From contig WFYS01000058.1 of assembly GCA_015490005.1 (NCBI GenBank), positions 1 to 64,000 on the forward strand: a stretch of DNA of 64,000 nt. The letters are read 5' to 3'. Shown here piece after piece: positions 43,649 to 50,093 of the stretch. The notes under the pieces are model-generated. The model was not told the origin of the DNA and ran no database searches. It saw only the letters and a program-made list of their open reading frames with translations. The DNA is from Desulfurellaceae bacterium (GTDB taxonomy: Bacteria; Campylobacterota_A; Desulfurellia; Desulfurellales; Hippeaceae). How positions within the stretch are numbered: position 1 is the first letter of the stretch; each line of letters opens with the position of its first letter. Made by a program: the position numbers and the translations under genes.

Positions 43649-45145
43649 ATGGTTCAAGAAGCTGAGAATAAACTAATTCAGAGAAGAATAGAAAAATTGG
43701 AAGAGTTGAAAAAGAGTGGGGTAGACCCTTATTTCAATGGTTTTAATCCGGATTCTTTTGCCCAAGATTTACATAATCAATACGATGAAGAGGCAAAGGA
43801 GAAATTAGAAGAGAGAAACATACCTGTCAAAGTGGCAGGGAGAATTATGGCCTACAGAAGTTTCGGCAAAGCCGGGTTTATGAAATTAAAAGATTTTACA
43901 GGATATATGCAAGTTTATGCTGAAAAGAATAGCTTATCAGAAGAAGAGTTTAGACTTTATAAGAAGCTAGATATTGGAGATATTATAGGTGTAGAGGGTG
44001 TATTATTCAAAACAAAAACAGGTGAACTTACGATTAAAGCTAAAAAAATAACTATGTTAACAAAATCTTTGAGACCTCTGCCTGAAAAGTGGCATGGTTT
44101 AAAGGATAAAGAGCTGCGCTATAGACAGAGGTATCTTGATTTAATCGTTAATGATGAAACTAAAGAAACCATGCTAAAACGTGCTCTTATTATAAATTCT
44201 ATAAGGAAATTCATGATAAAAAATAGATTCATAGAGGTTGAAACACCTATGTTGCATAAGCTTGTAACTGGAGCTGCAGCGAGGCCTTTTAAAACATATT
44301 TAAACGCTTTGGATATGGAGTTATACTTAAGGATTGCACCTGAACTTTATCTGAAAAGACTTGTGGTTGGCGGTCTTGAGAGAGTGTTTGAAATAAATAG
44401 AAATTTTAGAAATGAAGGTATGGACTTAAAGCACAACCCGGAATTTACGATGATGGAGTTTTATGTTGCATACAAAGATTACACGTTTTTAATGGATTTT
44501 ACGGAAGAGCTGGTTAGTTTCGTGCTGCAAAAGTTGGATATAAAAGACAAAATAATTAAATTTGATGGTAAAGATATAGATTTCTCAAGACCCTGGAAAA
44601 GAATTGATTTTTACGATGGATTGAGAGAGGTTGGTAAGGTTGATGATGATATATTAAACGACAAATCTAAAGCTTTGAAGTATGCGTTGGAGCTTGAAAA
44701 GAAGGTTAATGAAAATATGCCACATGAAAAGATACTTGCTGAAATCTTCGATGCTTTGGTAGAGCCCAATCTGATAAATCCGACATTTGTTGTTGGATAT
44801 CCAGTTGCTATATCTCCACTTGCCAAAAGAAACAGAGAAAATCCTGATATAACAGATAGATTTGAGCTTTTTATATCTGGAATGGAGATTGCAAATGCAT
44901 TTTCTGAGCTGAACGACCCATTTGACCAGAAAGGAAGATTTTTAAAGCAACTTGAGGAGAGGAAAAAGGGAGACGAAGAAGCGTCCATGTTTGATGAGGA
45001 TTATATTAGGGCGCTTGAATATGGTCTACCTCCAACAGCTGGTGAAGGCATAGGAATAGATAGGCTTGTTATGCTTCTTACAGGGAATACATCTATAAGG
45101 GATGTCATACTGTTTCCGCTTATGAGGGACAAAGAAGAGGAGTGA
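43649..45145 (+). CDS. lysS: Lysyl-tRNA synthetase, class II
   Basis: 498 residues. N-terminal OB-fold anticodon-binding domain (VAGRIMAYRSFGKAGF), then class II motif 1 (RFIEVETPML), motif 2 (FRNEGMDLKHNPEFT) and motif 3 (PPTAGEGIGIDRLVML). It is the standard bacterial class II LysRS. It starts three bases after prfB, a common gene order in bacteria, and its stop codon region contains a possible start for the following gene. Confidence 0.98.
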   Translation: MVQEAENKLIQRRIEKLEELKKSGVDPYFNGFNPDSFAQDLHNQYDEEAKEKLEERNIPVKVAGRIMAYRSFGKAGFMKLKDFTGYMQVYAEKNSLSEEEFRLYKKLDIGDIIGVEGVLFKTKTGELTIKAKKITMLTKSLRPLPEKWHGLKDKELRYRQRYLDLIVNDETKETMLKRALIINSIRKFMIKNRFIEVETPMLHKLVTGAAARPFKTYLNALDMELYLRIAPELYLKRLVVGGLERVFEINRNFRNEGMDLKHNPEFTMMEFYVAYKDYTFLMDFTEELVSFVLQKLDIKDKIIKFDGKDIDFSRPWKRIDFYDGLREVGKVDDDILNDKSKALKYALELEKKVNENMPHEKILAEIFDALVEPNLINPTFVVGYPVAISPLAKRNRENPDITDRFELFISGMEIANAFSELNDPFDQKGRFLKQLEERKKGDEEASMFDEDYIRALEYGLPPTAGEGIGIDRLVMLLTGNTSIRDVILFPLMRDKEEE

Positions 45146-45162
45146 TAAAAAAAGGGGGAGTT

Positions 45163-45528
45163 GTGATTGAATTGTTTAATGAAAATGGGCATATGAATGT
45201 AATGTTTAACGATTTAGGTGAAGGCTTAATGGTTCAGTCAAACCAACATATGATTGTTCACAATGATGAGGCCATGATTCTTGATCCTGGAGGACATAAG
45301 ATTTACACAAAACTCTTCTCAAGTATCTCAAGCATAATCAAGAAAAAGAATTTAAAATATATATTTTTCTCCCATCAGGATCCGGACATAATAGCTTCAG
45401 CCAACGCATGGCTTATGATTTCGGAGGCTGAAGCCTATTTGTCTGAACTTTGGATAAGGTTTATACCCCATTTTGGTGTTGATAAGTATGTTATCTCAAG
45501 GATTCACTGTATTCCAGATGAGGGGTGA
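45163..45528 (+). CDS. ODP-type metallo-beta-lactamase-fold protein, N-terminal half (split)
   Basis: About 121 residues from GTG 45163 (ribosome-binding GGGGGAG just before), ending at a TGA at 45526. It contains the first half of an MBL-fold di-iron protein of the flavodiiron/ODP kind: an N-terminal beta domain (VMFNDLGEGL), VHNDEAMILDPGG and the metal motif SHQDPD. The second half, in the next frame, supplies the other ligands. Expected full-length product is about 250 residues, a diiron oxygen- or NO-binding or reducing domain. The split is one missing base at the junction, so this is either a broken gene, a recoded gene or a sequence error. Confidence 0.72.
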   Translation: MIELFNENGHMNVMFNDLGEGLMVQSNQHMIVHNDEAMILDPGGHKIYTKLFSSISSIIKKKNLKYIFFSHQDPDIIASANAWLMISEAEAYLSELWIRFIPHFGVDKYVISRIHCIPDEG

Positions 45529-45914
45529 ATATACAACTTGGCGAGGTAGAGCTAAAGATTATACCTGCCCACTTTCTTCACTCCGCAGGTAATTTTCAGG
45601 TGTACGATCCTGTATCTAAGATACTGTATACTGGTGATTTAGGTGCATCTCTCGAGATGGATTATTTCATAGTTGAAGACTTCGATAACCACATCCAATA
45701 TATGGAACCGTTTCATAAACGGTATATACCGTGCGGAAGGGTGTTAAAACTCTGGGCTGACATGGTTAAGGAACTTGATATAAACATGATTGTTCCGCAA
45801 CATGGAGCCATATTTAATACACCAGAATTATCGAGGAGATTTATTGAATGGATAGAAAGTATATCTTGCGGTATTGATATTATGGAGGATATCTACAGGA
45901 TTCCTAGAGTTTAG
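45525..45914 (+). CDS. ODP-type metallo-beta-lactamase-fold protein, C-terminal half (split)
   Basis: 129 residues in the frame shifted by one base from the preceding half. It begins NIQLGEVELKIIPAHFLHS, where the FLHSAGN histidine and the YTGDLGA aspartate are metal ligands, and ends with the QHGAIF histidine near residue 105. These correspond to the second part of the flavodiiron MBL core. Alone it lacks the SHQDPD ligands and is unlikely to bind metal. The frame continues exactly across the junction if one G is added to the run at 45522-45525. It converges with trkH. Confidence 0.72.
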   Translation: MNIQLGEVELKIIPAHFLHSAGNFQVYDPVSKILYTGDLGASLEMDYFIVEDFDNHIQYMEPFHKRYIPCGRVLKLWADMVKELDINMIVPQHGAIFNTPELSRRFIEWIESISCGIDIMEDIYRIPRV

Positions 45915-47358: not shown

Positions 47359-48690
47359 CTATATAATTTTTTCAACAGTCGATATATGCTCTTTTTTTGT
47401 AAATATAACAACTCTGTCGTTCTCTTTTATTACAAAATTGCCATCAGGTATGAGATTTTCGTTGCTTCTTTCAATTGCCACTATGAGACAGCCCTGAGGG
47501 AGATGTAAATCTTTTATTGTTTTGTTTACAATCTTTGAGCTTTCTGATACTAAAACCTCTAATGCCTCTGCGTCACCACTAAATATTGAATAAACACCCA
47601 AGATCTTACCTTTTCTAAGGAATCTTAAAATGCTGTTTACAGTGGTCAATTTTGTGCTAACGACAGCATCTATATCGAATTTATTGGCCATCATTATGTA
47701 GTTGATTTTGTCAAGCAGTGCTATTGCCCTTTTTGTACCCATATTTTTTGCATAGAGTGCGCTTATAAGGTTAATTTCTTCATTATCTGTAGCTGTTATG
47801 ACCACATCAAACTCTTTTATTCCTTCTTCATCAAATAGCTCCGCATCGTTCGCTTCTCCGTTAATTACAGTAACTTTTTTCAATCTATCTGACACTTTTT
47901 TGCAACGTTCGTAGTCGCTGTCTATTATTTTTATGTTTCTTCTATTTCCCATTAACCCAGCTGCCGTCATAATTCCTATATCGCCTGCTCCAAATATCGC
48001 TATATTTTTAATATTGATACTTGATTTTCCTATGTATTCTACTATTTCGTTTATAGTGCTTTGTTTTGCCGTTATATATATGTAATCGCCTTCTTTTACT
48101 ACTGTTGCTCCTGAAGGTATGATGAATTCACCGCTTTCTCTTTTAATTCCAGATATTACAAAGTGTTTGTTTAGAGAGTGTCTTATTTCATGAATGCTAT
48201 TGTTTACAAAAGGAGATTTTGCGTCTATATAGAAGCCTCTCATTTGAATGTCTATGCCAAATACAACAACATCACTTGATGCTCCAAAATTTACCGTGTT
48301 TATTATAGATTTTGCAGCTTCAACCTCTGGATTTATCACATAGTCTATGCCTATTTTTTTTAAAGTAAAGTATCTTGTATATTTAACATTTCTAAGTCTG
48401 ACAATCTTTTTTGGTATGCTAAAATTTTGGGCTACGATAAGGCAACTAATCATGTTGACTTCGTCGGAGTTCGTTACGGCTATAAACATATACGCCTTAT
48501 CGCAACCTGCCTCTTTCAATGTGTTTAAATCAGTCGCTTCCCCATGAACTACAAGGCAATCCAAATTTTCATAGGCAAAATTGGCCTTGTCTGCATCTTT
48601 TTCTATTATGGAAATATTCTTTCTTTCCTCACTTAATTGTTTGGCTAAGTGATATCCAACGCCACCTGCACCCGCTATAATAATGTTCAT
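47359..48690 (-). CDS. trkA: Trk system potassium uptake regulator TrkA
   Basis: 443 residues organised as two copies of an RCK unit: each has a Rossmann TrkA-N domain (first IIIAGAGGVGYHLAKQL near residue 3; second IAIFGAGDIGIMTA near residue 230) followed by a TrkA-C domain. It binds NAD(H) or nucleotides and gates TrkH. Its start codon overlaps the fbp stop by one base. Both domains appear complete. Confidence 0.97.
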   Translation of the reverse strand: MNIIIAGAGGVGYHLAKQLSEERKNISIIEKDADKANFAYENLDCLVVHGEATDLNTLKEAGCDKAYMFIAVTNSDEVNMISCLIVAQNFSIPKKIVRLRNVKYTRYFTLKKIGIDYVINPEVEAAKSIINTVNFGASSDVVVFGIDIQMRGFYIDAKSPFVNNSIHEIRHSLNKHFVISGIKRESGEFIIPSGATVVKEGDYIYITAKQSTINEIVEYIGKSSINIKNIAIFGAGDIGIMTAAGLMGNRRNIKIIDSDYERCKKVSDRLKKVTVINGEANDAELFDEEGIKEFDVVITATDNEEINLISALYAKNMGTKRAIALLDKINYIMMANKFDIDAVVSTKLTTVNSILRFLRKGKILGVYSIFSGDAEALEVLVSESSKIVNKTIKDLHLPQGCLIVAIERSNENLIPDGNFVIKENDRVVIFTKKEHISTVEKII

Positions 48691-49679
48691 TAGCCGTATT
48701 TTTCCCTAAATTCTAAATATTTTTCTACTTCATATTTTGAGCCAATTATAAGTGGAATTCTTTGATGCAGTCCTTCTGGTTGTATGTCCAAAATCCTTTC
48801 TTTACCGTCTGTTGCCATACCTCCAGCGTTTTCTATTATAAATGCCATAGGATTTGCTTCATACAACAATCTCAGTTTGCCGTTTTTATTTTTCGAATCC
48901 TCTGGGTATAAGAATACGCCACCTTTCAGTAAGTTTCTGTGAAAATCAGCAACAAGAGTGCCAATCCATCTTAGAGTGTATTGTCTGTCTGGATGTTGTT
49001 TCATGAAATTTACATATTCTTGTATGCCTTTTGGCCACCTATGATAGTTTGATTCGTTTATGCTGTAGATTTTTCCATATTCGGGTATTTTTATGTTTGG
49101 ATGGGACAATAGAAATTCACCAACGCTTGGGTCTAAGGTGAAACCATTTACACCGTGGCCTGTGGAATAGACAAACATCGTGCTAGAACCGTAAATAACA
49201 TAGCCAGCACATACGAGTTTATTTCCCTGTTGTAACAAACTCTTTTTACAATCAGTGTCATCTAACCTTCTATAGATGCCAAAAATCGTTCCTACACTAA
49301 CATTTACGTCTATATTGCTTGAGCCATCCAAAGGGTCAAATACTACAGTATATTTACCTTCAAGACTTTTGTTGCTTACGGGGAGCATATCCTCCATTTC
49401 CTCCGATGCCATCGCACAAACTTTACCTGTTGGATCTAGGGCGTTTACTATCTTTTCATTTGCGTATAAATCTAATTTTTGTTGTGTTTCTCCGTGAACA
49501 TTTATGCCATCCGTGCTTCCTATTATGTTTACAAGTCCAGCTTTATTCACCTCTCTTGATACAATCTTTGCCGCAAATGCAATTTGTTCTAAGATTAAAG
49601 TAAAATCACCAACTGCACCTGGATATTTCCTTTGTTCTTCTAAGATAAATCTGCTTAAGCTAACAGTTTCTCCCTGCAT
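48690..49679 (-). CDS. fbp: Fructose-1,6-bisphosphatase class I
   Basis: 329 residues with class I FBPase motifs: the metal-binding FDPLDGSSNID, ASEEMED in the active-site loop region, and the C-terminal LLYEANPMAFIIENAGG with the AMP/allosteric-type residues of the bacterial enzyme. It serves gluconeogenesis, consistent with an autotrophic or organic-acid-using lifestyle (inference). It is the first gene of the unit with trkA and trkH. A GGGGGG ribosome-binding site and a good sigma-70 promoter lie upstream. Confidence 0.97.
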   Translation of the reverse strand: MQGETVSLSRFILEEQRKYPGAVGDFTLILEQIAFAAKIVSREVNKAGLVNIIGSTDGINVHGETQQKLDLYANEKIVNALDPTGKVCAMASEEMEDMLPVSNKSLEGKYTVVFDPLDGSSNIDVNVSVGTIFGIYRRLDDTDCKKSLLQQGNKLVCAGYVIYGSSTMFVYSTGHGVNGFTLDPSVGEFLLSHPNIKIPEYGKIYSINESNYHRWPKGIQEYVNFMKQHPDRQYTLRWIGTLVADFHRNLLKGGVFLYPEDSKNKNGKLRLLYEANPMAFIIENAGGMATDGKERILDIQPEGLHQRIPLIIGSKYEVEKYLEFREKYG

Positions 49680-49706
49680 TCTTTACCCCCCTTCAATTTT
49701 TTTATA

Positions 49707-49735
49707 AATATAACATCAATATTTTGTTTAATCAA
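49707..49735 (-). promoter_or_regulatory. Sigma-70 promoter for fbp-trkA-trkH
   Basis: On the minus strand TTGATT (49730-49735), 17 bases, TATATT (49707-49712), each five or four of six. Predicted start about 49700, 20 bases before the fbp ATG. It lies downstream of the structured element at 49744-49871, so that element is probably not the fbp leader. Confidence 0.6.
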
Positions 49736-49743
49736 AATAAAAT

Positions 49744-49871
49744 GAGTGTGGGCCCATCTCTAATGAAGCGGATTGCTAAAGAGCGGGCATGGAAAGGGGC
49801 TAAAAAGAGGATAAACGAAGGCTTGTTGTCTGGCCTCATCGGCCATCCGGAAGGACCACCCCCACACTCGA
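49744..49871 (-). ncRNA. Unassigned GC-rich structured element, probable small RNA
   Basis: About 126 nt closed by a perfect 9-bp stem, GAGTGTGGG (minus 49869-49861) with CCCACACTC (minus 49752-49744). Inside, two arms can pair: GGAT...ATCC around GGCC-GATGA-GGCC, and CCAT...ATGG around CTCT...AGAG. I estimate just over 50% GC in an otherwise AT-rich region. On the minus strand TTGACT (49900-49905), 16 bases, TAAACT (49878-49883) would start transcription just before the stem, and the 3' end runs into ATTTTATTTTG. It does not match 6S, SRP, tmRNA, RNase P or any riboswitch I know. Strand and boundaries are inferred from these signals; an overlapping plus-strand frame is probably spurious. Confidence 0.45.
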
Positions 49872-49877
49872 TGTGGA

Positions 49878-49905
49878 AGTTTAATAAAAAGAACTCGAAA
49901 GTCAA
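49878..49905 (-). promoter_or_regulatory. Possible sigma-70 promoter for the unassigned small RNA
   Basis: On the minus strand TTGACT (49900-49905), 16 bases, TAAACT (49878-49883); four or five of six matches each. The same bases can form a small weak hairpin, so this is tentative. Confidence 0.35.
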
Positions 49906-50093
49906 GTGTTTTTTAAACAGAAAAAGAGATTTTTGTATGTTTTGATAGAAACTTTGTTTGTACAACCTATTAAAGTAAAAGAAATTTTATTAAATTTTCA
50001 CCTTACACCGTTATTTCATTATCATGAACTAAAGTGAACGATTATGGTTTTTGCAGAGTTGAAAAAATAATTGGCTTTTGATAGGTTTTTAAT
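49906..50093. other. AT-rich intergenic remainder before the permease gene
   Basis: About 190 AT-rich bases of the 414-base gap between fbp and the plus-strand permease gene. I find no convincing gene or RNA here. Low-grade promoter-like sequences occur (TTGCAG and TTGAAA near 50050-50066) but none has both elements at good spacing. Confidence 0.4.

Follow-up and report, generated by a model that had tools for sequence, protein, structure and literature searches.

A probable stand-alone small RNA gene upstream of fbp in the Hippeaceae

Results

Locus and boundaries of the element

We identified an element of ~127 nt upstream of fbp which is very probably a stand-alone small-RNA gene of the Hippeaceae. 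Its boundaries, strand, conservation, closing stem (P1), internal hairpin (P3) and the separate promoter of fbp were established by sequence comparison. The gene was located at 49744–49870 on the minus strand of the window (the whole 64,000-nt stretch of DNA that was analyzed, from a 1.62 Mb draft genome), with the putative RNA 5′ end at ~49870, and was conserved in 12 Hippeaceae genomes. In the NCBI taxonomy, Hippea is placed in the Hippeaceae, Desulfurellales, Campylobacterota. The earlier note on this DNA had described about 126 GC-rich bases within a perfect 9-bp repeat. As observed, the 127-nt block had a GC content of 55%, compared to 36% in the window and 19% and 25% in the two flanks, and was bounded by a perfect 9-bp inverted repeat of GAGTGTGGG (49869–49861, minus strand) with CCCACACTC (49752–49744). 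A GC-containing 9-bp repeat at the same spacing appeared in 0.15% of gap shuffles, confirming the description.

The downstream neighbor, fbp (48690–49679, minus strand), encodes a fructose-1,6-bisphosphatase with the Pfam FBPase and FBPase_C domains; it was the constant neighbor and lies outside the RNA. The gap between fbp and the ABC permease gene spans 49680–50093 (414 nt). The same note had called this gap the longest in the window, which was correct if chance ORFs are ignored, but not if ORFs of at least 60 aa are counted as genes, when the longest gap was 191 nt and lay elsewhere. At 45142–45914 of the window, two overlapping ORFs in different frames looked by eye like halves of one metallo-beta-lactamase/flavodiiron-like protein, perhaps owing to a frameshift or sequencing error.

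Promoters and 3′ end

A promoter-like sequence was found at 49878–49905 on the minus strand, consisting of a −35 TTGACT (49905–49900), a 16-nt spacer and a −10 TAAACT (49883–49878). The suggestion that this sequence is placed to start at the closing stem was borne out by the relatives. In 12/12 genomes, TTGAC[AT] and TAAACT were separated by a 16-nt spacer whose last bases were TTTTTA[CT], and TAAACT stood 6–7 nt before CGAGTG. A predicted promoter of its own at fixed spacing, which is a feature of a free-standing small RNA, was therefore kept in all of them. When up to two mismatches were allowed, the pattern occurred at 2–3 sites per genome, and the reversed control at 0–1. Among these sites were promoters directly before tRNA-Leu genes in two of the related genomes (G007 and G008). 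tRNA-Leu (cag) stood directly before a metK-like gene and behind a promoter much like that of the RNA (L116, 1400–1488; L122, 1543–1630). The sites also included the promoter of a metF-like gene in G004 and G007 (L117 and L124), which shared the GTTTTTATTAAACT end with the promoter of the RNA.

At the opposite end, the T-rich tract ATTTTATTTT (49734–49743, minus strand), a probable terminator tail, directly followed P1. T runs were within 1–3 nt of P1 in 12/12 copies, in agreement with the U-rich tail proposed for this end. A standard short-loop terminator was not found at the RNA 3′ end in the window copy; the 3′ end is not of the standard type because the loop enclosed by the stem exceeds 100 nt.

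A second promoter, TTGATT-N17-TATATT with TG before the −10, was located between the RNA and fbp (49707–49735, minus strand). All 12 genomes had such a promoter in this place (TTGAT[AT] or similar, N17, TANNNT, with a preceding TG), of which 10 matched strictly and 2 loosely, compared to at most 0.1% (strict) and 1.7% (loose) of shuffles. Across the 12 genomes, this promoter was 8–49 nt from the RNA end, and its −10 was 21–35 nt from the ATG of fbp. Because a separate fbp promoter follows in every genome, the RNA is unlikely to be a leader that fbp requires. This predicted promoter is the main evidence for the RNA as a unit of its own, and supports the earlier view that a free RNA is more likely than a leader. 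A cis role on fbp is less likely given the second promoter, although the constant linkage to fbp, against four different neighbors on the other side, could leave room for one.

Conservation in relatives

Full copies of the RNA were found in 12 genomes (the window genome, G001, G003, G004, G005, G007, G008, G010, G011, G013, G014 and G015) from three genera of the Hippeaceae, with one good copy per genome, and a partial copy cut by the contig end was found in G002. In every full copy, the RNA was just upstream of fbp and on the fbp strand, and the gene on its other side varied among a divergent ABC permease, a ferritin-like, a 2-oxoacid oxidoreductase beta-like and a histidine-kinase-like gene. 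Within the genus, a DNA search of the relatives showed the block in the corresponding position in other genomes. Sister-genus copies, for which the plain DNA search had given fragments only, were recovered from the regions upstream of fbp.

A covariance model, R1, was built from the RNA copies and matched them at E ~1e-20 or better, down to ~1e-28, although these values are flattered because the same sequences built the model. In a search of 25 genomes that covered the class and the phylum, R1 gave nothing else below E 0.01, and weaker matches (E above 0.01) were taken as noise. No copy was found in three genomes from the order's other family. In G006 and G012, the place of the RNA was not assembled since fbp is at a contig end. 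G009 contained fbp, and the RNA was not detectable there by R1 and the search upstream of fbp. Comparison of loci L054 and L051 showed the order trpB-like, ferritin-like, RNA and fbp in genus g3; in G009, the trpB-like gene adjoins fbp, with the ferritin and the RNA both missing from the spot. A pattern scan of the sequence collection recovered two Hippea-lineage records (Hippea sp. and a Desulfurellales MAG) and two unrelated loci, which we read as chance.

Structure and strand

Next, the conserved parts of the RNA were compared. The closing stem P1 consisted of the 5′ strand GAGUGUGGG (49861–49869, minus strand), invariant in the 12 sequences, and the 3′ strand CCCACACUC (49744–49752, minus strand), which pairs with it. 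Its cells were 99% paired over the 12 sequences, with a U-A to U-G exchange in three (G011, G014 and G015). Inside P1, the motif CCUNCC (here CCUUCC, 49849–49854, minus strand) was present in 12/12 copies, N being U, G or A but never C. It was followed by the hairpin P3, UGGCC-GAUGA-GGCCA in the window copy (49831–49845, minus strand). A hairpin of 4–6 pairs was at this place in all 12 copies, with both sides changing between lineages (GGCC/GGCC, GAACCC/GGGUUC, GCAGG/CCUGC, GCGGC/GCCGC and AGCAGC/GCUGCU). The check for covariance among relatives, which the earlier note had proposed, thus revealed compensatory base changes in one internal hairpin. Per-sequence shuffling of P3 gave P = 0 to 0.08 over the 12 sequences. 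In the model-fitted alignment, which leans toward structure and consists of related sequences, four pairs had double changes, and the covariation score was above all shuffles and slid controls. P1 and P3 therefore supplied the conserved structure that is a further feature of a free-standing small RNA.

RNAalifold with default scoring on a plain MAFFT alignment recovered P1 only, since MAFFT misaligns the variable hairpin, and the minimum-energy fold of the window copy did not contain P3. Folding was modestly better than that of shuffled sequences (z of −2.9 for the window copy and −1.5 to −3.7 over the 12 homologues). The proposed three-way junction with two internal arms was only partly upheld. 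The closing stem and one hairpin, P3, were comparatively supported, but the junction was not established, the minimum-energy arms being only partly conserved. Beyond P3, the interior showed no further structure common to all 12 copies, and local 3′ arms differed by lineage. The minus strand was favored because the G-U exchanges in P1 and P3 (the latter in G003 and G011) would be A-C on the plus strand, and because GNRA-type loops (GUAA, GCAA, GGAA and GAAA) fit the minus strand.

A pyrimidine-rich stretch, mostly without conserved pairing, occupied 49766–49823 (minus strand) and ended in YCCRC (UCCGC, ~49772–49768). The pyrimidine content was 57–70% in the interior and 66–78% in the 3′ half in 12/12 copies. 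By inspection of the alignment, YCCRC was present in 10/12 copies and CCCUC in the other two.

Comparison with known RNA families, proteins and partner proteins

The element had been described as fitting no recognized RNA class. Consistently, Rfam 15 gave no relevant family match for the window copy at gathering and permissive thresholds, nor for eight homologous loci at the permissive threshold, and no tRNA or tmRNA was found in the window. The element resembles 6S RNA as a stand-alone bacterial RNA with paired ends, and the bacterial small SRP RNA as a short stable RNA gene. Both were rejected: 6S RNA (RF00013) was unmatched at the locus and found elsewhere in 19/19 genomes searched (over the cut-off in 18), and bacterial SRP RNA (RF00169) was unmatched at the locus and found elsewhere in 12/12 genomes searched. 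A search of the literature on noncoding or small RNAs of Hippea and Desulfurella/Desulfurellales found nothing relevant.

A conserved protein on either strand was ruled out by the free variation in length among copies (122 to 135 nt) and by the lack of a conserved frame. Conserved coding would have spoken against an RNA, and no reading frame was conserved among the relatives. Profile searches of the 12 genomes did not find Hfq (PF17209), with the controls positive, or TROVE/Ro (PF05731), with one control positive as expected. An Hfq-dependent trans-acting small RNA was rejected on this ground, as was a Y RNA/Ro RNP, for which Rfam gave no Y RNA match either. Bacterial Y RNA, which associates with the Ro protein, has a stem that joins its two ends and encloses a pyrimidine-rich loop, and the Hippeaceae RNA is alike in this. 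RepG of Helicobacter pylori is a C/U-rich small RNA that acts without Hfq. The Hippeaceae RNA similarly has a pyrimidine-rich exposed segment in genomes where Hfq was not found; however, its Shine-Dalgarno complementarity was not above that of shuffles.

Discussion

The best explanation overall, to which we give about an even chance, is an Hfq-independent trans-acting small RNA. We infer that the element is transcribed, that its transcription ends at P1 and that the RNA acts in trans. Minus-strand transcription would start at ~49870 from the TTGAC/TAAACT promoter and most likely end in the T-rich tract behind P1, giving an RNA of ~130 nt with its ends zipped together. fbp would have a transcript of its own, begun at the promoter that directly follows the RNA. 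The closed ends, CCUNCC and P3 may stabilize the RNA and present the long pyrimidine-rich segment, and this exposed C/U-rich segment may pair in trans, without Hfq, with purine-rich stretches of particular mRNAs. Trans action is the default role for small-RNA genes of this kind. We propose base pairing with mRNAs more tentatively. The best anti-Shine-Dalgarno complementarity was no better than that of shuffles in 11/12 sequences at P 0.05, and the mean pairing of the RNA to the 56 translation starts in the window equaled that of shuffles, so that nothing beyond composition speaks for pairing.

The same result would suit an RNA that acts by binding a protein, which we consider rather unlikely overall. 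Such an RNA would serve as a scaffold, or as a decoy, for a protein that binds pyrimidine- or C-rich RNA (such as Rho, or a KH-domain or cold-shock-type protein), which would recognize CCUNCC and P3. The conserved features are a short motif, a hairpin free to vary in sequence and a bias toward pyrimidines, not a fixed seed, and CCUNCC keeps its frame while N varies, all of which agrees with protein binding. Against it, Hfq and TROVE were not found in the 12 genomes. The fbp linkage in every genome could alternatively reflect a cis role. If the RNA is an fbp leader, transcripts begun at the upstream promoter would, depending on a signal, either stop or run on at P1 and the T-rich tract, and YCCRC would compete with the 3′ strand of P1 for pairing to the 5′ GUGGG. 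The codirectional linkage in 12/12 genomes while the other neighbor changes, the T-rich tract directly after P1, and the potential of YCCRC to pair with GUGGG in 10/12 copies (by inspection) fit this proposal. Nevertheless, in 12/12 genomes the separate fbp promoter holds a steady distance from fbp but not from the RNA, no RNA was detected in G009, which has fbp, and linkage is expected without function because there is so little room between the two. We therefore regard a leader as distinctly improbable.

A combination of both is very unlikely, namely a free RNA terminated by its own long-range closing stem, with folding deciding between RNA release and read-through into fbp; in this same combination, the internal YCCRC copy of the P1 3′ strand would compete for the RNA 5′ end. 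Least probable is that there is no minus-strand RNA, and that the locus instead encodes a small protein or a plus-strand RNA, or is chance sequence. In the window copy, one frame of the plus strand has no stop across the element, and plus-strand folding z-scores were similar in several copies. Against this, in most relatives the frame is cut short by a stop or has no start, lengths vary freely, the wobble exchanges become mismatches on the plus strand, and only a minus-strand RNA would have the promoter and the T-rich tract in the right places.

The stand-alone small-RNA gene would add a family-specific RNA, unlisted in Rfam, to a deep-branching thermophile lineage in which Hfq was not detected and RNA regulation is little known. 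Its boundaries, its strand and the parts that are conserved are now known precisely enough that expression and deletion could be tested directly.
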